Shown: piece by piece, positions 18,355 through 63,651 of the stretch
Position numbering within the stretch: position 1 is the stretch's first letter
Layout of the letters: each line of letters begins with the position of its first letter
From: Pirellulales bacterium
Lineage (GTDB): Bacteria; Planctomycetota; Planctomycetia; Pirellulales; PALSA-1355
DNA length: 64,000 nucleotides
NCBI GenBank assembly: GCA_022844125.1
Contig: JALHMI010000022.1
Coordinates: forward strand, 1-64,000
Direction: 5' to 3'
Notes under the pieces: model-generated
What the model saw: the letters and a program-made list of their open reading frames with translations, nothing else
What the model was told of the DNA's origin: nothing
Database searches by the model: none
Program-made: the position numbers and the translations under genes

Positions 18355-18438
<84 letters not shown>

Positions 18439-18452
18439 CTTGCTTTGTCACA

Positions 18453-18486
18453 AGGGTTTGCGAAGTATTTCGCGAACCCTTTTTTG
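18453..18486 (+). terminator. Intrinsic terminator after tRNA-Leu
   Basis: AGGGTTTGCGAA pairs with TTCGCGAACCCT over 12 positions (one G-U), with a 4-nt loop and a T6 tail. It should end the tRNA transcript and insulate the integrase. Confidence 0.8.
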
Positions 18487-18549
18487 TTTGGTGCCCGAGC
18501 GATAGGGGACAGAAAGGGGACATGCGTAGCGGTTGAATGGAGGTAGTGT

Positions 18550-19755
18550 ATGGCCTCGCTTGAGACCCGCCAGTTCCCGAACCGAACCAGCTATCGGCTC
18601 GTCTTTAGGCTACATGGACGCAAGTTCGGACAGACGCTCGACGCCGTCACGGAAGCAGACGCGAAGCTGGTGCTCGCCTCGGCCGAGAAGACGCTCGCCC
18701 TGATCGCTGAGGGACGCGTCACGATCCCGCCCGGTGCCGACATCGCCCTGTTCGTCGCGACGGACGGCAGGATCACGCAGAAGCCCACGCAGGGCAATAT
18801 CCTGCCGCTCGGCGAACTCTTCGACGAGTACGTGAACGGGAACCCCGACGGGCATCTTGAAGATTCAACGCTGCTCACCATGCGGATTCACCTGAAGCAT
18901 GCCGCCCGCGTTCTGGGGAAAAACACCCCGCTCGGATCGCTGACCTTCGACGACCTTCAGAACTACATCAATCGCCGCACGAAAGATAAGAATCGGCAGG
19001 GGAACAAGATCAGCCCCGTCACCGTTCGGAAGGAAATCAACACGATCAGCGGAATGTGGAGCTGGGCCGCGAGCCACGGAAAAGTGAAGGACGGATTCCC
19101 CGGAAAGAAACTGAAGTACCCCCCGACGACGGAAGCACCACGCTTTCAGACGTGGCACGAGATTGATCGCCAAGTGAAGAACGGTGCCGATGAATCGCTT
19201 TGGGATTCTCTCTTCCTCAGCCCCGACGAGGTTGAGAAGCTTTTGAAGCACGTTGAGAAGCACGGAGTGAAGCCGTACGTTCATCCGATGCTGCTGACGG
19301 CCGCCCACACCGGAGCCAGGCGAAGCGAGCTGATCCGGAGCCAAGCCGAGGACATCGACTTCAAAACGATGATCATTGCGATCCGCGAGCGGAAGCGTGA
19401 ACGGGGACACCACGGCACGCGATCGGTCCCCATGTCGGCCACGCTCGCGAAGTCCCTCAAGAAGTGGCTTGGAACCCGCACCAGCGGCCCCACGTTCCAA
19501 TGTAAAGACGGCCTGCCGCTGACACGAGATGAGGCTCATACGCATCTGCAAATGACCTTGGCTGATTCGAAATGGAAAGTGATGAAGGGCTTTCATACGC
19601 TTCGCCATTCACTGGCATCGAACCTCGCGATGAAGGGAATTGATCAACGCGTCATTGACGAGATCATCGGACATTCCACGGAAGCCGTCGCCCGAAGGTA
19701 CCGGCACTTCGCCCCAAACTTCAAACGGAACGCCGTGCAATTAGTCTTCGGGTAG
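18550..19755 (+). CDS. int: Tyrosine recombinase / integrase next to tRNA-Leu
   Basis: This 401-aa protein has an N-terminal arm-type region, a SAM-like core-binding domain (ADLFDEY-like stretch [10 protein letters not shown] onward) and a C-terminal catalytic domain. Catalytic residues are the first Arg in [18 protein letters not shown] (HxxR), GHSTE and the nucleophile Tyr in ARRYRHF. A strong GGAGG ribosome site precedes ATG 18550. Its position beside the tRNA and the excisionase-like gene converging on its 3' end make it the likely integrase of the island. Confidence 0.93.
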
Positions 19756-47629: not shown

Positions 47630-49111
47630 TCATTCGCCGTACGATGCGGCCAGCCTTCCAATCGCGGTAGCGGACGACCATTCGCCGTAATCTGGAAATC
47701 GGAATCCGGCGGAGAGGTGTCGCTCGGCCTCTTCGATCGCCTGCTGTTTCGCGACGTCTTCCGGAGCATCCTTGAACATCCCCAAAAATGTCTCAACGGT
47801 TTTCTGATAGCGATTCCGATCGATCTCTTCGCGGAGGAATTTATGCAGTGCTTCCTTCCTTGCTTTGCGATAGGCGATTGTGAGATTCGGGTCGGCGGAG
47901 ACGCCGCGAGCCTGTAGGTCCTCGTCATGCTGTCGTCGACGTTCGTCACGTTGATGATCAAGAAACCAGTCGGGCGCGGACGTCCCGCGCTTGATGCCGT
48001 CCAGACAGTAGGCTTCCGGACTCTTCGAAAAGAACTTCCGCCCCTTCGTCTCCATCGCGACCTGTGTGTATTGTGCCCAGCGGGCAATGACCTGGTGATC
48101 ATACTTCTTCAAAATCGATCGAATCGCGGCATCCTCGAAGCCGATCGTTTTCAGTGGTTCGTAGAGAGGGGAGTCAGCGGCGCTCGTCACCGGGTGATGG
48201 GAGAGTTGATCGATCGAATGCTGCTCGAAATACGATCCGCGTTCGAAGCGAATGGCATACAATCCGCGCCCGCGCTTCTCGAAGAGATCGGCCACTCGGT
48301 CGACGCCGCTCGGCAAAGCAATGAAGTTCGCAGCCAGAAGCTTCTCGGCACAGTGAGTGATGTCACGCTTGAGATACTTGGTCAGTCGGTGGGGCGAGTA
48401 CCCAAGAACATTCGTTCCGAGGTGTCGAAGTTCGAAAGGAGGTGAAACCTTTCGTCGCCAGAAGATCTTATGGAGTAAGAGCGCCAGTCGCCTTGATGCC
48501 GGATCGAAACTCCGGAACGTGTCGCTCGTCAGATCGAAGAAGAGTTTCCCGCCCGTCGCTTGCACGTATTCAAAGAACAATGGGTCCCAAACGATTCGCC
48601 ACGCTCGGGAGGAATCGTCACGTTGCGGCAGACTGTACTTGAGCAGTCCGAAGCCTGTATCCTGAAACGTCTGGAGGCGGGGATCGTAGAACGCATCGCA
48701 TTGGTAGAAGACACCGGCCAGGCGTTTGATCGTAGCCCGAAACTCGGCATATTGCTTTCCGCCCTTGGCCGCCAAGTATCCGAGCTTCTTCAGGCAGAAG
48801 TGCGGCGTGGCCAGAAACTCGATCGACGGCTGCGGTTGATTGAACGTCAGCGCGAGCAGTCCCCAGAGAAAATACTCGTCGCGGGACGAGAGTCCGAGTG
48901 CCGCGAAAATGGAGACGTTGGCGAAGCGGCGTTTGTTGGCGTCCGTGTAGAAGTACCCTGTCTTGTGCTGGTACGGTGCTATGAGGGAGAGAGCCGGGTC
49001 GAGCGAACAGAGTGCGTGCTCGATAATCGATAGCTGTGCAAGTCCGCTACGCTGCTCCCGCGTGCGCGTCGGCCGCGATGGATGGGCCGATGGGGGATTG
49101 AGTACGGACAT
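47630..49111 (-). CDS. Replication initiator protein A (RPA family)
   Basis: The 493-aa product has the pattern of the PF10134 plasmid replication initiators: RSGLAQLSIIEHALCSLDPA at the start, YFYTDANKRRFANVSIFAAL, then SLPQRDDSSRAWRIVWDPLF and a winged-helix region near PPFELRHLGTNVLGYSP. It should bind the neighbouring iterons and open the origin. The gene is on the minus strand, so the iterons lie downstream of its stop. An intact initiator inside an integrated island suggests it was a plasmid or still can excise. Confidence 0.85.
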   Translation of the reverse strand: MSVLNPPSAHPSRPTRTREQRSGLAQLSIIEHALCSLDPALSLIAPYQHKTGYFYTDANKRRFANVSIFAALGLSSRDEYFLWGLLALTFNQPQPSIEFLATPHFCLKKLGYLAAKGGKQYAEFRATIKRLAGVFYQCDAFYDPRLQTFQDTGFGLLKYSLPQRDDSSRAWRIVWDPLFFEYVQATGGKLFFDLTSDTFRSFDPASRRLALLLHKIFWRRKVSPPFELRHLGTNVLGYSPHRLTKYLKRDITHCAEKLLAANFIALPSGVDRVADLFEKRGRGLYAIRFERGSYFEQHSIDQLSHHPVTSAADSPLYEPLKTIGFEDAAIRSILKKYDHQVIARWAQYTQVAMETKGRKFFSKSPEAYCLDGIKRGTSAPDWFLDHQRDERRRQHDEDLQARGVSADPNLTIAYRKARKEALHKFLREEIDRNRYQKTVETFLGMFKDAPEDVAKQQAIEEAERHLSAGFRFPDYGEWSSATAIGRLAASYGE

Positions 49112-49393
49112 CGAAAGAGGCGACGTGCCTCGGATTGTCCGTCGCGATGGGCATCGTTGGCAAGCGAAGATATTTGTTCATGGCGAATCGATGTTGGAAT
49201 GCTAATCGGCCGACGATAGGTTACGGGAAGTGGAGAATGTCGTGATCGTTCACACAGGCCCGAGCCGTAAGCAGTACACGGCGAGTGAGACCTCGACTTG
49301 TCGGTTGTTGGGTGCCAATTTGCGGCGTTGCGAGAAAATGAAATGGGACTAGAATGCTGGGGAAGTTCCATCAGGTTTCCGAGGCTTGCTTTG
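49112..49393. other. Gap; possible truncated integrase-like 26-aa ORF
   Basis: A plus frame at 49125-49205 (GTG after GAGG) reads MPRIVRRDGHRWQAKIFVHG and stops after MLEC. It resembles the first strands of a phage integrase arm-binding domain but is far too short. No further gene is supported. Promoters for repA (minus) and for the regulator remnant (plus) should lie here. Confidence 0.3.
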
Positions 49394-49575
49394 ATGCCCT
49401 CAGCAGAGAAAACGAGCTTCGCAGACTACGTCATGGTGGCGTACGTGGCACCTTTCCTCGGCTATCGTTCGATACACGTCGAAACTGGGATAAAGCTGGG
49501 AAGCTCGCCTCTACTCGTCATCCGCCGAACGGTTATCGTTTATATAGACTTAGCGACCTGGATGAACTTCTGTGA
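49394..49575 (+). pseudogene. MerR-like helix-turn-helix regulator, frameshifted
   Basis: One frame reads DYVMVAYVAPFLG and the next SFDTRRNWDKAGKLASTRHP followed by NGYRLYRLSDLDELL, which together make a MerR-like HTH with the wing. The joint near 49461-49464 needs one extra base; GGC-GTA-TCG becoming GGCTATCG would account for it. Intact relatives are small regulators upstream of methylase or helicase operons. A 116-bp gap separates it from the four-gene operon. Confidence 0.65.
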
Positions 49576-49690
49576 TCGGTGCGAAGCCGTTTTGCCGCCG
49601 AGAAACTTAGAGTGAAGCGATCACGGCGCTCACCCGAGATCCTTGGACGATAGGTGTTGTTCCTCCGTTTAATCGGTTGGAGGCAGTGGT

Positions 49691-51094
49691 ATGCCGGCGA
49701 TCACCAAACCAGCGGCAAGAGCAATCATTGAGGATTTTGCGAAGGAAGTTCGCGAAAAGCGCTTACAGACAGCCAAGCCGTCGAAGGCGGTGATCAACTT
49801 CCGCACCGATATGAAGGACGGAATCGAACGGCCGATCTGGCGAGTTCCGATCTGCATTCTTCGGTTCCGCAAGGATAACGGGAGAATCTCGTCTGACGTG
49901 ATGGACCACGAGCACAATGTCGGCTTGCTACACGAGACCGACGAGACTGCGCAGCAAACGATCAGGCAATTCCTTGAGCAGAAAGACCCGGAACGGACTG
50001 ACGTGCTGCGGTCATCAATCATGCACGCCGGACAGCAAGAGCCGGCGATCATCACGTGTGATGGTTTCTTGATCAACGGTAACCGTCGCAAGATGGTGAT
50101 GGACCGGTTGCACAGGGAGTTCCCAGAGAATTCAACGTTCGCTTACATCAAGTGCGTCATCTTGCCGGGAAAGGACGATGAGGGCGGCCCGCCAACGCTG
50201 TTGGAGATCGAAAAGCTCGAAAACCGCTATCAGCTTCAAAGTGATGGCAAGTCGGAGTACTACGGGTTCGATCGAGCCCTTTCGATCAAGCGCAAGATTG
50301 ATCTTGGTCTCAGCCTTGAGGAGCAGCTTCGTGATGACCCGCGGTATACCGAGGCAACTAAGCCGCAGCTTGAAAAAGCCGTTAAGGACTGTGAGAAGAT
50401 GTTTCTGAAGCCGCTTGAGTGCATCGATCGGTACTTGAAGCAGTTCCACCGCGAGGGCCAGTACCGGACGATCTCAACCGGGATGTCAGATCCGGAAGGC
50501 CGCTGGCAGGCATTCATCGATTACAACCAGACGTACACGCAGAGCTTCATGAACCAGAAAAAGCTCATCGAGCTTGGAATCGAAGAAGATGAGATTGGCA
50601 GCATCGAAGAAGCCGCGTTCAACATTATTCGCCTGCGGACGATCCCGGAAATGCCGAAGGTCCACGTGATCATGCGGGATTTGCCAAAGTTTTGCCGAAC
50701 CAAAGAGGGGAAGCGGGAAATCCTAAGAATCGTCGAGGAAGTGGAGCCGGTCCTCCCGTCCAGCGAGTGCTTTGACAATAACGGGAATCCTCTTCCGACC
50801 GCCGGGATTGACGCAAAGTGGGCGGCAAAGTATAGCCGGCCGATCATCCATCATCTTAAAAAGGCGGCAAGCAAACACGAAACGCTGAAGGATAAAGAAA
50901 CTCCCCTCGGGCTGCTTGAGGCGGCTCACAAGAAGCTGACGCATTCGGACATGGATATTGGGGCCATCGGCGTGAACGACATTGCCAAAGCGCGAGAGCT
51001 TGCGACGGCAATTGAAGACCGCGCCTACGAGATCAAGGATCAGATATTTCATTTTGAAAAGGAATTGAAAAAGCTGACGGACCGACAGCGATGA
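49691..51094 (+). CDS. ParB/Srx-fold protein of a defence-like operon
   Basis: The 467-aa protein has a ParB-type N-terminal fold: WRVPICILRFRKDNGRISSD, then SIMHAGQQEPAIITCDGFLI and NGNRRKMVMDRL in place of the GxRRxxA box. The remaining 300 residues are helical (EQLRDDPRYTEATKPQLEKA, ..KKLTDRQR) and unlike chromosome-partition ParB. Such ParB/Srx or DndB-like domains act as nucleases or DNA-sensing regulators in defence systems. ATG 49691 heads the operon; its stop overlaps the next start by 4 bp (ATGA). Exact role unknown. Confidence 0.72.
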   Translation: MPAITKPAARAIIEDFAKEVREKRLQTAKPSKAVINFRTDMKDGIERPIWRVPICILRFRKDNGRISSDVMDHEHNVGLLHETDETAQQTIRQFLEQKDPERTDVLRSSIMHAGQQEPAIITCDGFLINGNRRKMVMDRLHREFPENSTFAYIKCVILPGKDDEGGPPTLLEIEKLENRYQLQSDGKSEYYGFDRALSIKRKIDLGLSLEEQLRDDPRYTEATKPQLEKAVKDCEKMFLKPLECIDRYLKQFHREGQYRTISTGMSDPEGRWQAFIDYNQTYTQSFMNQKKLIELGIEEDEIGSIEEAAFNIIRLRTIPEMPKVHVIMRDLPKFCRTKEGKREILRIVEEVEPVLPSSECFDNNGNPLPTAGIDAKWAAKYSRPIIHHLKKAASKHETLKDKETPLGLLEAAHKKLTHSDMDIGAIGVNDIAKARELATAIEDRAYEIKDQIFHFEKELKKLTDRQR

Positions 51095-52995
51095 TCGAAC
51101 TCTCGTTGCAGGGGACTTCACTGGTTGTGCGGCCGGAGAGCGGGGACTTCAAGCCTCGGCACGAAAGTCAACTCGTATACTGGGGGTTTGCGCGTAGTCT
51201 GGACGACGGCGCATTTGTTGCCGATGCCAGTGCTTCTTCGGCCTTGGCCAGTAAGCTCGTGTCGTACCTGAAAAGGGTTGGTGTACCGTTCCAAGTGGAG
51301 GGCGAGCTTCAGCCTTTGCTAGAGCGGCACGAGGAATCGCGTACCGCGTTGCAGGTGTCGGCGGAAACCTGTCGCTTGTTAAAAGACGGCAGGGTCGATC
51401 CGGGAGTGGTGTCCGAACTTGAAGATTTCCTGCGTAGCTCGATCGCGAGACCGCTTAAGGATCATCAATTCAAGGCAGCCCTTCATCTGCTAACTGCCGG
51501 AAACGGCGCCAATTTTTCGGTTCCGGGAAGCGGAAAAACGACGGTGGTGCTCGCTGTATTTCAGAAGCTTAAGCAGCTGGGAGACGTGGATTCGTTGTTC
51601 GTCGTCGGACCACCGTCCAGCTTCGCGCCCTGGAGAACTGAATACCGGGAAGTGCTGGGAGCTACACCCGACTGCGAAATCCTAGCCGGTGGTGATATCG
51701 AGTCCAGGCGGAGCCGATATCTCGTCGACAGTGAGTCCGTTCGCGACTTATACCTCACAACCTTTCAGACGCTCCAGCGGGATTGGGAACACGTCGCTCA
51801 ATTGTTCTTGGACCAGGGCGTCCGTTTTTTTCTGATCGTCGATGAAGCACATTACATCAAGCAGGTCGGCGGCGCATGGGCAACCGCCGTTCTCAACGTT
51901 GCGAAACATGCAACACGGCGATGCGTGCTCAGCGGGACTCCGTTTCCACGGAGCTACGAAGACGCATTCAACCTTTTCGACGTTCTCTGGCCGGAAACAT
52001 CCCCTATTAGCGTTCAGGACCGATATCGCATCGCGCTTCACTCACAGCGCAATGAGCTGGTGGAGGCGGCTACGGTACTTGAACAAGCGGTTGGCCCACT
52101 TTTTTATCGGGTGCGTAAAAATGACCTCGGTTTGGCGGAACAAGTGTTCCATGAGCCGATTCGCATTCGAATGAAGAAACGGGAGCGGCATGTATACGAT
52201 TCGATCATCAGCCGTATTGTTGCCGAGTCGGAGGCAGACTTTTTCCGCGACTTTGAGTTGCTCGTGCGGCTGCGGAAGGGAAGAATGATGCGGCTGCGAC
52301 AATGCACCTCATACGCGGCGTTGTTAAGTTCGGCGATCCCGGAATATGACGAAAACCTTTTGGTGGACGATGCGTCGCTGGCCAACCAGCTTCGGAACTA
52401 CGACGATCTTGAGACGCCAGGAAAATTAGACGCTCTGGTTGACCTGGTGAGGGATCTGCACGGCAGCGGCAACAAGATCGTGGTGTGGTCAAATTTCGTT
52501 CGTACGCTCAAGCTAATCGTCAATCGGCTATCGGCACTAGGATGCCGGGTCGGCCTCATCTATGGCGGAACACCATTTGAGAGCGCTGACCTCGAAGAAG
52601 AACTCAGTCGGGAAGAGATCATCCGCGAGTTCACAAAAGCCCACGGTGGCTTCGATGTGCTCGTCGCAAACCCCGCCGCCTGCGCTGAGTCCGTATCGTT
52701 ACACAAGTCTTGCTCCCACGCGGTGTACTACGACTTGTCGTACAACTGCGCGCAGTACCTTCAATCGCTCGATCGCATTCATCGTGTGGGCGGCTCTGAG
52801 AACAGGGCTGCCCACTATCATGTGCTGGAATACGAGAACACGATCGACCACGACATTCTGATGAATGTGCGCAAAAAGGCGGCGAACATGAATGCGGTGA
52901 TCGACCAGGACTACGCGATTTATTCTTTGGATATGTTCGGCGACGACGGGGATTTGGAAGCGTATGACCGACTCTTTGGAAAAAGAGAGCAATGA
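51091..52995 (+). CDS. SNF2-family helicase/translocase
   Basis: The 634-aa protein has Walker A VPGSGKTT (residues 144-151), DEAHYIK (251-257), LSGTPFPRSYEDAF (280-293) and a C-terminal motif with QSLDRIHRVGGSENRAAHY. This is the SNF2 superfamily 2 pattern, acting as a double-stranded DNA translocase. The N-terminal 120 residues form an unrecognised domain. It starts by ATGA overlap and should couple to the DUF3883 gene, which begins before its own stop. Confidence 0.88.
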   Translation: MIELSLQGTSLVVRPESGDFKPRHESQLVYWGFARSLDDGAFVADASASSALASKLVSYLKRVGVPFQVEGELQPLLERHEESRTALQVSAETCRLLKDGRVDPGVVSELEDFLRSSIARPLKDHQFKAALHLLTAGNGANFSVPGSGKTTVVLAVFQKLKQLGDVDSLFVVGPPSSFAPWRTEYREVLGATPDCEILAGGDIESRRSRYLVDSESVRDLYLTTFQTLQRDWEHVAQLFLDQGVRFFLIVDEAHYIKQVGGAWATAVLNVAKHATRRCVLSGTPFPRSYEDAFNLFDVLWPETSPISVQDRYRIALHSQRNELVEAATVLEQAVGPLFYRVRKNDLGLAEQVFHEPIRIRMKKRERHVYDSIISRIVAESEADFFRDFELLVRLRKGRMMRLRQCTSYAALLSSAIPEYDENLLVDDASLANQLRNYDDLETPGKLDALVDLVRDLHGSGNKIVVWSNFVRTLKLIVNRLSALGCRVGLIYGGTPFESADLEEELSREEIIREFTKAHGGFDVLVANPAACAESVSLHKSCSHAVYYDLSYNCAQYLQSLDRIHRVGGSENRAAHYHVLEYENTIDHDILMNVRKKAANMNAVIDQDYAIYSLDMFGDDGDLEAYDRLFGKREQ

Positions 52996-53953
52996 ACTCG
53001 GCCAAGTGCGATTGAAGCACGTCGAGGCGCTCGTTGACCTGCTGCGGACTTCGACGATCAAGCAAAAGGATCATGTTCGGCGGCGGTACTGCGAGCAGGC
53101 TTCGCACTTTGATGCAACGCTGCGTTTTGTGAGTCAACTTGGCTGCGTGTGCGATGATGGGGAATCGCTGTCGCTCAGTCCTGGAGTCGCCGCTGGAAAG
53201 CGCCTCTCTCAGGAAGTGTTGAGTCGCTTTTGTGCTCAGGCGAGTCCCTTTCGTGGGGAATTGTCTCAGTATCTTGTTCGGTTCTGTGTCGTGGACGATC
53301 GAGTTGTTTACCGGCCGATCGCACAACGCACGAGCCGTGAAAGTGAGCTTCGGAACCTATTGATGGATTTGGAAGTCATCTCGCATGATGCAATTGCCGG
53401 GACTTATGTCCTCAACCCTAAGTTCAACGGACTCTATACTCAGATGGCACGCGAGGTGGGAGTTGTCGCGCCAGGAAGCATTGCCGCACGACGTGCGGCG
53501 TCGGAAGCGGTGGGGTCTACAGCCGAAGAGGTCGTCCTTTTCTTTGAGCGCGAACGCGTCGGGGACGCATACGCGGCACAGGTGAAGCACGTAGCTCAAG
53601 TGGACGCTGCGGCAGGCTACGACATAGAAAGTGTCACTGTGCTTTCGGGATCGATGATAGTTCCTCGTTTGATCGAGGTTAAGGCCGTGCCCGCCGCTAA
53701 CCTGCGGTTTTATTGGAGTTCTAATGAAGTTGCGACGGCGCAGCGGTTTGGTTCGTGGTATTACCTGTATCTCTTGCCGGTTCAAGCCGAGGGACGACTC
53801 GACACCGATTGTCTCGTTATGCTGGAAAATCCATATCAGACTATTGCGCAGGACAACGGTGGGTGGTGCGTCGAACCTGAAGTCCTGCGGTGCGAAAAGA
53901 ACGATCGTCCGACACACGGATGCGACAAAGGCAACGGCGGGGCCATTGTATGA
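52964..53953 (+). CDS. DUF3883 domain nuclease-like protein
   Basis: The 329-aa protein has an N-terminal helical region and a C-terminal DUF3883 fold: AAAGYDIESVTV (Asp 220), PRLIEVKAVP (ExK, 238-240), FYWSSNEVATAQRFGSWYYL. D and ExK in this spacing indicate a PD-(D/E)XK-type catalytic site, so DNA cleavage is plausible. ATG 52964 overlaps the helicase gene by 32 bp. Together with the methylase, it has the character of a restriction enzyme. Confidence 0.82.
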   Translation: MTDSLEKESNELGQVRLKHVEALVDLLRTSTIKQKDHVRRRYCEQASHFDATLRFVSQLGCVCDDGESLSLSPGVAAGKRLSQEVLSRFCAQASPFRGELSQYLVRFCVVDDRVVYRPIAQRTSRESELRNLLMDLEVISHDAIAGTYVLNPKFNGLYTQMAREVGVVAPGSIAARRAASEAVGSTAEEVVLFFERERVGDAYAAQVKHVAQVDAAAGYDIESVTVLSGSMIVPRLIEVKAVPAANLRFYWSSNEVATAQRFGSWYYLYLLPVQAEGRLDTDCLVMLENPYQTIAQDNGGWCVEPEVLRCEKNDRPTHGCDKGNGGAIV

Positions 53954-54897
53954 AGCGGGACTATTCAACGGCAGGGAAGAAGGCGATTACTGCCGTGTCG
54001 GGGCCAGCTCCAGCGCCATTCGCATATTATGGAGCCAAACAGCGGCTCGCTAGCCAAATTGTCGCGTCACTTCCGCCGCACAATGCGTGGGTTGAAGCCT
54101 TTTGCGGGTCGGCTGCCCTGACGCTGGCGAAATCAGCAGCGCCAATCGAGGTGATCAATGATTTGAATGGGCATATTGTTAACTTGTTTCGGCAATTGCG
54201 CGGCAACTCTAAAGCTCTGTGCAAGGTTGTGACACTAACGCCGTACGCTGCCGAAGAGTTTGAAAAGTCACACAAGAACAACCGCACGATGACGCCGCTG
54301 GAACAAGCGCGACGATTCCTCGTTCGGACCATGATGACGGTAAATGGCACCGTCGATGGCACGCGGTCGGGTTTCTCGTTCTCGCAATCATACTCTCGCG
54401 AAGAACGGGAGGCGCGTGTGAATCGCTGGCACAACTTGCCTGATCGACTCGAAAGCATTGTCGAGAGGTTACGGAACGTGCGGATTGAGAAACGTGACGC
54501 ACGTGACCTTCTTCGAATGTTCAGCGATCGCCCTGCAACTCTAGTGTACTTGGACCCGCCGTACTTCACAAAGCGTGAGCACGGGTACGTGATTGACGCG
54601 AACGACCGTGACTTCCATGAGGAATTGCTTGAAGTATGTTTGGACGCAAAGTGCATGATCTTGCTCAGCGGTTACGATAACAAGTTGTACCAAGAGATGT
54701 TGGTCAAGAACGGCGGATGGACTAAAAAGAAAATCAAGACGCACACGCGGGATACGACCGGGAAGGATTACGCAAGAACAGAAGTGCTATGGATGAATGA
54801 TCGCTTTGTTCATGCGAAGAAGCTAGGTCGCGTGCCAATACGACTCTCCAAGAAGGAAAGGATTGACAATAAGGTCAACCCGCCACGATCACGATAG
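53950..54897 (+). CDS. D12-class N6-adenine DNA methyltransferase (Dam-like)
   Basis: The 315-aa protein has FAYYGAKQRLASQI and WVEAFCGSAALTLA (SAM-binding motif I region), then LVYLDPPYFTKREHGY with the DPPY catalytic motif IV (202-205). Order and spacing match GATC-type class D12 methylases. ATG 53950 overlaps the DUF3883 stop by 4 bp. It probably protects host DNA from the operon's nuclease. The target sequence is unknown. Confidence 0.9.
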   Translation: MKRDYSTAGKKAITAVSGPAPAPFAYYGAKQRLASQIVASLPPHNAWVEAFCGSAALTLAKSAAPIEVINDLNGHIVNLFRQLRGNSKALCKVVTLTPYAAEEFEKSHKNNRTMTPLEQARRFLVRTMMTVNGTVDGTRSGFSFSQSYSREEREARVNRWHNLPDRLESIVERLRNVRIEKRDARDLLRMFSDRPATLVYLDPPYFTKREHGYVIDANDRDFHEELLEVCLDAKCMILLSGYDNKLYQEMLVKNGGWTKKKIKTHTRDTTGKDYARTEVLWMNDRFVHAKKLGRVPIRLSKKERIDNKVNPPRSR

Positions 54898-55328: not shown

Positions 55329-56189
55329 ATGGAATCGCTTGCTACATCCTTCGAGAATCGCCCAGCCGTCGTGGCCACCATGCACGGCAAGGAGCGAATC
55401 TTGGGACCACTCCTGAAGACTGCCTTTGGCATTGAAGTCTTTGTCCCAAGCGACTTTGACACCGACCGCTTCGGCACGTTTACGCGCGACGTACGGCGGC
55501 CGGCCAACCAACGCCGGACTGCGCGACTGAAAGCCCTAGCCGCGCTTGAACTGACCGGGGCGGAGCTAGCACTCGCCAGCGAAGGGAGTTTCGGAACGCA
55601 TCCGGATTTTCCCTTCGCCCCCTGCGATACCGAACTGGTGTTGCTGTTAGATCGCCAGAGCGGGCTGGAGATCATCGGCGGACACGTGGCGTTTAATGTC
55701 CGCATGGCCCACGCCATAGTTCATTCGGTCGCGGCCGCCCGGGAGTTTGCGCTGGCCGAGAATTTTCCGCGGCACGGGTTGGTACTCCGCTCAAGCGCTG
55801 ACTCGCGCGGCGATTTGGAGAAAGACCTCGCGTCCCTGGACGAGTTGGAACGGGCCGTCGCCGAACGGTTGCGCCGCTCGCGAACAGGCGCCGTGTTTTT
55901 AGAGAGCGATTTGCGCGCTCACCGTAACCCTACACGGCAGGCGAATATTGCGGCGGCAACTGAGGATCTGATCCGCACGATGCGCCGCCGATGCCCCGGC
56001 TGCAGGCAAGCGGGGTTCGCACTCGTCGAGCGCATCGAAGGCCTCCCCTGCCGGGCGTGCGGTCTGGCAACGCGCGGCCTATTGGCTGAGCGCTACTGCT
56101 GTGCGGGCTGCGGGTACACTGAACAACGGTCGGTACCGGAAAGTCCCACCGCGGCCGACCCGGCCATTTGTCAGCGCTGCAACCCGTAG
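55329..56189 (+). CDS. DUF6671 family protein with C-terminal zinc ribbon
   Basis: The 286-aa protein begins MESLATSFENRPAVVATMHG and carries KERILGPLLKTAFGIEVFVP and GTFTRDVRRPANQR, which I recall for DUF6671. The tail has four cysteine pairs, CPGCRQAG, CRACGLAT, CCAGCGYTEQR and CQRC, likely two zinc ribbons. Function unknown. It is convergent with purK. Confidence 0.7.
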   Translation: MESLATSFENRPAVVATMHGKERILGPLLKTAFGIEVFVPSDFDTDRFGTFTRDVRRPANQRRTARLKALAALELTGAELALASEGSFGTHPDFPFAPCDTELVLLLDRQSGLEIIGGHVAFNVRMAHAIVHSVAAAREFALAENFPRHGLVLRSSADSRGDLEKDLASLDELERAVAERLRRSRTGAVFLESDLRAHRNPTRQANIAAATEDLIRTMRRRCPGCRQAGFALVERIEGLPCRACGLATRGLLAERYCCAGCGYTEQRSVPESPTAADPAICQRCNP

Positions 56190-62862: not shown

Positions 62863-63651
62863 CTAGCGGTGTGTTCCGAGTCGCAACTGCTCTTGGTTGG
62901 CGGGCGACGTCAGTTGCTCGCGAGCCTCGTCGAGCGCAGTAAGCACGTCGGGGTCGCCGACGGATCGTTTGCGGAATGAGATCGTCACGATGGCGGCACT
63001 GGTCTGGAACCGTCGCATCGTCATATGCGGCGTTCCGCGGCGACTGGATGGTTGCTTCTCCCGGCGAACCAATTCCTCAGTCTCGACGACTTTCAGTCCG
63101 CGGTGTTGGACTTCCTTCATGATTTCAGCTTGGCGGTCCGGAGCGACCTGGGAAACTGCGTAGAGTTGTCTGCGTGAAAGGGTCGAATCCTGGCGGGCGC
63201 GTTTCTGCACCTCAGGTGCGAGCGAAAGCAAAGCGAGGAGCTTCGAGATTTCACCTTTGGGCTTCCCGGTCAACTTGGCGAGTGCGTCCTGCGTCAGCTT
63301 GTTGGTGTCGCGGATGGAAGCAAGCGCATCGGCGAGCTCGAACGGACTCAAATCACTGCGCTGCCAGTTCTCAACGATCTGACGAACAAGGATCTCTTCC
63401 TCGCGGGGGGATTGCACCCAGCACGGAACCTCGGTGAGCTTGGCCCGAAGCGCGGCCTGGTAGCGCCGCTCACCGGAAATGATCAGATAGATGTTCTGGT
63501 CTTCGATGTAGCGCACGGCGATCGGCTGCATGATGCCGAACTGCTTAATGGAAAGGGTCAGTTCCTGCTGTGCCTGCGAATCGAGCTGGCGTCGCGGCTG
63601 TGTTGGATCCGGGTGGATTCGACCGATCTCGATGAAATACGCGCCAGCCAA
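62863..63651 (-). CDS. parB: ParB/RepB/Spo0J family partition protein
   Basis: The protein has the ParB core: IGRIHPDPTQPRRQ, QFGIMQPIAVRY and the box LIISGERRYQAALRAKLTEV. A HTH region includes TQDALAKLTGKPKGEISKLL. It should bind parS and CTP and partition DNA with ParA. TTG 63651 was chosen; the frame is open up to 63903, but that part overlaps the parA coding end by more than 200 bp. A CTG at 63705 near the parA stop is another candidate. Confidence 0.8.
   Translation of the reverse strand: MAGAYFIEIGRIHPDPTQPRRQLDSQAQQELTLSIKQFGIMQPIAVRYIEDQNIYLIISGERRYQAALRAKLTEVPCWVQSPREEEILVRQIVENWQRSDLSPFELADALASIRDTNKLTQDALAKLTGKPKGEISKLLALLSLAPEVQKRARQDSTLSRRQLYAVSQVAPDRQAEIMKEVQHRGLKVVETEELVRREKQPSSRRGTPHMTMRRFQTSAAIVTISFRKRSVGDPDVLTALDEAREQLTSPANQEQLRLGTHR

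Follow-up and report, generated by a model that had tools for sequence, protein, structure and literature searches.

DUF3883 has been proposed as a restriction endonuclease (REase) domain in restriction-modification (R-M) operons, some of which encode SNF2 helicases fused to DUF3883 (passages on DUF3883 in PMC3710099), and presumed DUF3883 type II enzymes are mentioned for archaea in a passage of PMC10609329. The MORC/paraMORC R-M operons (Iyer et al. 2008, PMC2292703) combine an SNF2 motor with a C5 or adenine methylase, Vsr and an REase-fold nuclease, and are mobile, as is likely here. We analysed a stretch of 64,000 nucleotides from contig JALHMI010000022.1 of a Pirellulales bacterium (the window), which contains a four-gene operon encoding a ParB-like protein, an SNF2-family motor, a DUF3883 protein and a DNA methylase. 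The first three genes form a trio that recurs in the same order in many bacterial phyla, and we consider it fairly probable that the operon is an R-M-like defence module, with the methylase marking self DNA, the ParB-like protein serving as clamp, the SNF2 protein as motor and the DUF3883 protein as cutter.

A methylase and a predicted REase-fold DUF3883 protein are common to this operon and to the R-M systems described with DUF3883, but the motor of the window operon is a separate protein, and in loci of its type no part is more constant than the ParB-fold protein; the ParB-SNF2-DUF3883 trio does not appear in the DUF3883 passages of PMC3710099 and PMC10609329. In the MORC/paraMORC operons the additional ATPase is of the GHKL type, and a full-text search of PMC2292703 finds no ParB. 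Type III and type I/ISP R-M systems likewise place motor-driven restriction beside a methylase, and ParB-SNF2 pairs are even found inside type III operons; in those systems, however, motor and nuclease form one subunit, whereas in the window motor, nuclease and methylase are separate, and Pfam recognised neither HsdS, HsdR, Res or Mod nor any further restriction gene among the four genes. The chromosomal ParB, Noc and KorB CTPases share the N-domain fold (Z 9-12), the Box I-III layout and a probable helix-turn-helix (HTH) with the window protein, but the latter appears to have invariant Asn in place of the catalytic Gln and Glu, is partnered by a motor and a nuclease, and has no ParA partner in the conserved set.

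Searches of PADLOC, NCBIfam and Pfam gave no model for the whole set, in agreement with a first-pass annotation of the window that had recognised no named system in it. In PADLOC the DUF3883-type nuclease domain is represented only by the candidate PDC-S36 and within proteins of other systems; PDC-S36 and PD-T4-1 share this domain (E 3e-27 and 7e-19 for the best member of the family), but the matches are at the level of the domain only and no ParB member matches them. The B protein of PD-Lambda-5 is a D12 methylase, which the window methylase matches at 6.9e-19; its A protein is not matched by the window ParB, and one of 40 ParBs matches it, at only E=0.001. The window SNF2 protein also resembles the SNF2-type motors of Hma, DISARM, Zorya and Dpd. 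Among the matches listed for the four proteins there is none to DrmB, and the DrmA and DrmD matches are weak and to generic SNF2 domains; likewise a ZorD-like match is confined to the SNF2 domain, with no match to ZorA or ZorB. The Dpd matches are at domain level only, the other defining proteins of that system not being among the four genes, and HmaA matches at 3.5e-8 over the helicase C-domain only, with HmaB and HmaC absent among the best 25 matches listed for the SNF2 protein.

Gene content and conservation of the trio

The four open reading frames (ORFs) at 49691-54897 are intact and uninterrupted, and their arrangement on the plus strand with ATGA or longer overlaps is as first described. 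The ParB-like protein (467 amino acids, 49691-51094) comprises a ParB/Srx-fold nucleotide-binding N-domain (about residues 47-187), an HTH/M-domain and a helical C-terminal region, and its gene shares an ATGA overlap with that of the SNF2-family superfamily 2 (SF2) motor (634 amino acids, 51091-52995), which carries a Walker A motif (VPGSGKTT), DEAH and IHRVG. A 32-nt overlap joins the motor gene to that of the predicted DUF3883/NOV_C nuclease (329 amino acids, 52964-53953), which has an N-terminal winged-helix region and a C-terminal PD-(D/E)XK-type domain, and a further ATGA overlap leads to the methylase gene (53950-54897), whose 315-amino-acid product, with a DPPY motif, is by family a D12-class (Dam-type) N6-adenine methylase; a longer GTG start open at 53890 was judged less likely. 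Pfam bears out the initial calls for the motor (SNF2-rel_dom 1.3e-14, Helicase_C 2.4e-9), the DUF3883 protein (NOV_C, which is the DUF3883 domain, 1.2e-11) and the methylase (MethyltransfD12 1.7e-20), giving the operon both a linked DNA methylase and a linked nuclease gene with an intact catalytic motif. The window ParB has no match in Pfam, PADLOC or NCBIfam models, but its assignment is upheld by an alignment of the family and by the structure model.

We compared the window with 99 other loci, each with a plus-strand ParB gene. Most of these were selected by ParB similarity only, so that the neighbours of ParB are independent evidence, although L011-L016 entered via SNF2 matches and some loci are duplicates (e.g. 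L008/L099 and L073/L097). An SNF2 gene lies directly downstream of ParB in 96 of the 99 loci, and a DUF3883 gene follows SNF2 in 77. The gaps between ParB and SNF2 are all 50 nt or less, with overlaps in 59 of 96; the same limit holds for SNF2 and DUF3883 (67 of 71 overlapping) and for 36 of the 38 gaps between methylase and ParB. When plasmids were searched by tblastn with ParB, 13 records were obtained, and in all nine that were opened an SNF2 gene follows; in L010 this gene was located in the DNA despite having no annotation. A genome scan with the ParB alignment gave 195 relatives, of which 80 were kept, plus seven viral contigs. The window ParB alone as query found no relatives in a search of viral contigs, and DUF3883 alone found no match on plasmids.

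Among 297 genomes of the source organism's order no convincing close relative was seen, while 392 genomes of the source phylum yielded three further ParB-SNF2-DUF3883 loci (L112-L114), with a methylase recognised near all three, and one ParB-SNF2 locus (L115) without a DUF3883 match. Hosts of the family include Bacteroidota, Bacillota, Pseudomonadota, Actinomycetota, Campylobacterota, Chlorobiota, Verrucomicrobiota, Mycoplasmatota and several candidate phyla, and the trio occurs on plasmids, in an integrated element and on many long chromosomal contigs. In two loci a further, divergent ParB gene of this family lies near the main operon (L042:5229-6500, minus strand, and L087:8992-10251).

The ParB-like protein and the predicted nuclease

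The model of the ParB-like protein (predicted local distance difference test score (pLDDT) 85.7, predicted template modelling score (pTM) 0.80) has CTP/CDP-bound ParB, Noc and KorB as its top structural matches (Z 11.9-9.5), with sulfiredoxin below them (Z 8.6 or less). The matches to CTP/CDP-bound ParB at Z 11-12 have a root-mean-square deviation (rmsd) of 1.4-1.9 A over 90-95 residues, that to 7bnr_A, for instance, having Z 11.8 and rmsd 1.6 A over 93 residues. The Box I-III contacts R65, G130, R132, R133 and E177 are conserved in 96-97 of 97 sequences. When the profile is aligned with canonical ParBs from related genomes, GNRR falls on GERR and the match extends through the ParB HTH (E=4e-4); Pfam matches to HTH_ParB were obtained for three of 41 family members (best E 0.0054). 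The first-pass annotation had suggested that this protein recognises DNA or regulates the nuclease. Because the fold is a nucleotide-binding one of ParB type accompanied by a probable ParB HTH, the more specific role of a clamp or loader is suggested.

Neither catalytic residue of ParB appears to be kept. N131 aligns with the glutamate of GERR, which we take to be E93 of Myxococcus ParB, and N63 falls on the catalytic Q52 through the offset of the structural alignment (48↔37). Both asparagines are near-invariant (96-97 of 97), the figure for N131 being biased for loci from the genome scan, in which the GNRR pattern was used; GN(R/T)R is found as well in plasmid-derived loci and in L112-L115, which were found by hidden Markov model (HMM), none of them having been selected by that pattern. 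In Myxococcus xanthus ParB, the Q52A and E93A mutants show no CTP hydrolysis (PMC9178275). Since both of these hydrolysis residues appear as invariant Asn, hydrolysis is probably slowed or altered in this family, and nucleotide binding appears to be kept. Standard CTP hydrolysis is therefore doubtful, while membership of the ParB fold stands.

In the DUF3883 model (pLDDT 82) the N-terminal parts resemble winged helices, which are also their fold neighbours, and the neighbours of the C-terminal domain include Hjc resolvase, the SPARDA nuclease, NhoI/Eco15I, HinP1I and R.SwaI. The D and ExK pointed out at first reading are part of a PD-(D/E)XK signature (E238xK240) of which E188, D220, E238 and K240 are invariant in all 44 DUF3883 sequences compared. 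Searches of Protein Data Bank (PDB) sequences with the ParB and DUF3883 profiles gave nothing useful.

Exchangeable methylases and nucleases

A DNA methylase usually adjoins the trio, and the partners were labelled by clustering and a few Pfam checks. The commonest form, in 33 of 93 tree rows, has a C5 methylase (roughly 540-600 amino acids) directly upstream and no other recognised REase, although rows labelled 'none_seen' or 'C5 only' may hide an unrecognised one; DUF3883 is thus the remaining candidate nuclease in these loci. In 17 rows there is a BanI/DpnII-like REase, mostly accompanied by a C5 methylase; a Sau3AI/MutH-like enzyme is present in nine, a type III Mod/Res pair in five, and a 986-amino-acid protein with N6/N4-type methylase matches in one. 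Nine rows contain a gene family of about 290 amino acids, 'Rx' (PCRHPGAPPEEV), e.g. L004:7039-7905, which immediately precedes ParB in loci from actinobacteria and alphaproteobacteria; it has no Pfam match and is probably an unrecognised restriction enzyme. On Enterococcus plasmids, proteins of 860-880 amino acids with a sigma-70 region 4-like HTH are encoded upstream of ParB-SNF2 (L007:5296-7905 and L011:2891-5485), and these cluster with the Sau3AI/MutH-like enzymes.

Downstream DUF3883 is absent from 22 loci, 16 of which have a Sau3AI/MutH-like enzyme (nine) or a type III Res next door (seven). Of the others, three stop close to the end of a contig, L079 carries a BanI-like gene and L081 has DUF3883 upstream, leaving L057 as the only one to lack both downstream DUF3883 and any substitute. 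Since loci that lack DUF3883 almost always have some other R-M nuclease, the simplest reading is that ParB-SNF2 is the core and the nuclease is replaceable.

The form with a Dam-type methylase is rare, comprising the window, L029 from a delta-proteobacterium and L043 from a Bacteroidetes, the last cut by a contig end. The methylase precedes ParB in L029 and L043 and follows DUF3883 in the window. The three methylases are 61-64% identical and the L029 and L043 ParBs have 25-31% identity to that of the window, so that methylase and trio either differ in evolutionary rate or were exchanged. The SNF2 tree groups the window with L029 only weakly (48) and on long branches, and so does not establish that the Dam form arose once. 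Across the rest of the phylum sample, the long matches to Dam genes reach no more than 38% identity. The four genes had been put forward as one set, and the trio does recur in fixed order, but a Dam gene accompanies it in only two other loci; the methylase of the window is one of several interchangeable partners, among which C5 methylases dominate, rather than a fixed fourth part.

Genomic setting and possible function

A tRNA-Leu followed by a tyrosine integrase (18355-19755) marks the left border of an integrated element of roughly 36 kb, with the operon at its right end. GC content is lower over about 19-55 kb and rises again past about 55 kb, and the low-GC stretch carries a primase-polymerase, a second recombinase, a coupling protein and a replication-relaxation protein. 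Because this stretch begins with tRNA-Leu and integrase and holds conjugation and replication genes, we regard the operon as probable cargo of a mobile element integrated here, as the earlier proposal of a mobile island had it; a search for the attachment (att) site found no repeat of tRNA-Leu of 14 nt or more. The MerR-like remnant that was thought to precede the operon corresponds to a probably degenerate MerR/excisionase-like HTH ORF (49354-49575, plus strand) with a Pfam MerR match of 1.8e-4, below cut-off, but it lies outside the conserved system and shows no sign of recurring alongside it in the loci compared. A 493-amino-acid protein encoded at 47630-49111 (minus strand) resembles plasmid replication initiators by eye and has no Pfam match. 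Just outside the right end of the element is a gene for a DUF6671 protein (55329-56189, plus strand), before purK/purE-like genes, assigned by eye, past about 55 kb. A canonical ParB (TIGR00180) is encoded about 8 kb from the operon (63124-63645, minus strand), and TIGR00180 matches number five in all in the source genome.

SNF2 proteins are translocases of double-stranded DNA, and D12 proteins methylate adenine. ParB forms a clamp around DNA when it binds CTP, and the known roles of such clamps lie in segregation and gene silencing. The mechanism we favour for the operon is that the Dam-type methylase, judging by its family, marks the host genome, while the ParB-like protein would bind DNA, probably at or near unmethylated sites of this methylase, and be switched into a DNA clamp by a bound nucleotide, CTP by analogy. 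The clamp would then recruit or license the SNF2 motor to translocate on double-stranded DNA, and the DUF3883 protein, with its winged helices and PD-(D/E)XK domain, would cut. ParB-SNF2 would form the core, to which an exchangeable nuclease (DUF3883, Sau3AI/MutH-like or type III Res) and methylase (C5, Dam, N6/N4 or type III Mod) are added; the proteins may act as a complex, and site recognition and cleavage may serve in defence against phages. The best reading is of an R-M-like set that is modular and horizontally mobile, and since the order of the trio, its overlaps and its link to methylases span many phyla, and no named model fits, the original view of the operon as an uncharacterised R-M-like set is well supported. 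More tentatively, it may represent an undescribed restriction class in which a ParB-type clamp with replaced hydrolysis residues loads at unmethylated sites and licenses SNF2 and interchangeable nucleases.

Several points weigh against an R-M-like function. The ParB profile-profile probability is low (35%) despite the E value, the Box I correspondence of N63 to Q52 comes from a structural-alignment offset and motif spacing, and nucleotide binding by the ParB-like protein is proposed by analogy only. Structural matches of DUF3883 are of middling strength (Z 7.5-9 for the nuclease rows; Foldseek E >0.01), which leaves the nuclease claim to rest on motif and Pfam. Some loci also hold DUF3883 plus a complete type II R+M pair, and the trio could therefore be an add-on rather than a restriction enzyme. 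As an accessory of ordinary type II or III R-M, it would, for example, clear bound proteins, degrade cut DNA or block the anti-restriction of phages, with no discrimination between self and non-self, and both the 17 rows with a BanI/DpnII-like REase and C5 methylase besides the trio and the complete Mod/Res pairs beside ParB-SNF2 in type III loci speak for such a role. We nevertheless think it unlikely, though worth serious attention, given the 33 rows in which a C5 methylase and the trio stand with no other recognised REase, the lack of another restriction gene in the window operon, and the substitute nucleases found where DUF3883 is missing.

The number of parts, a ParB clamp that is unusual for R-M, and the domain-level resemblance of the motor to ZorD, DpdE and DrmD would also suit a methylation-linked defence of the BREX/DISARM type, in which self would be marked by the methylase and phage DNA blocked or degraded by the effector without classical site cleavage, with DUF3883 acting on replication intermediates; this appears improbable, as the defining partners of BREX, DISARM, Dpd and Zorya are unmatched among the four proteins and the DUF3883 nuclease motif is fully conserved. 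More improbable still is a module for maintenance or competition of mobile elements, in which a ParB-like protein of a plasmid or integrative and conjugative element (ICE) and a nuclease attack rivals while the methylase protects the element's own DNA. Loci do occur on plasmids and in an integrated element, and a passage of PMC12839542 cites ParB/Srx proteins as possible actors in plasmid conflict, but many loci lie on long chromosomal contigs across many phyla and a ParA partner is missing from the conserved set. The degenerate MerR-like ORF might hint that the genes are neighbours by chance or through decay and do not work together, a notion to which we give hardly any credence and which co-conservation rules out, with SNF2 beside ParB in 96 of 99 loci and the motifs intact.

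The individual links are already known, namely DUF3883 as an REase domain, its fusion to SNF2, and SNF2 in MORC-linked R-M operons. Full-text searches of open-access papers found no description of the ParB-SNF2-DUF3883-methylase combination and no paper that brings together ParB, CTPase, restriction-modification and defence; the trio may have been described earlier outside the open-access literature. That the clamp works by a new kind of mechanism is a realistic possibility. If the R-M-like reading is true, a ParB-SNF2 core common to C5-, Dam- and type III-linked R-M operons would make control of restriction by a nucleotide-controlled clamp widespread, many genes annotated as 'ParB family partition protein', 'DEAD/DEAH helicase' and 'DUF3883' would belong to one system, and many seemingly orphan C5 methylases would gain a nuclease. 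In the undescribed restriction class suggested above, ParB clamps would serve immunity instead of segregation, across many phyla.

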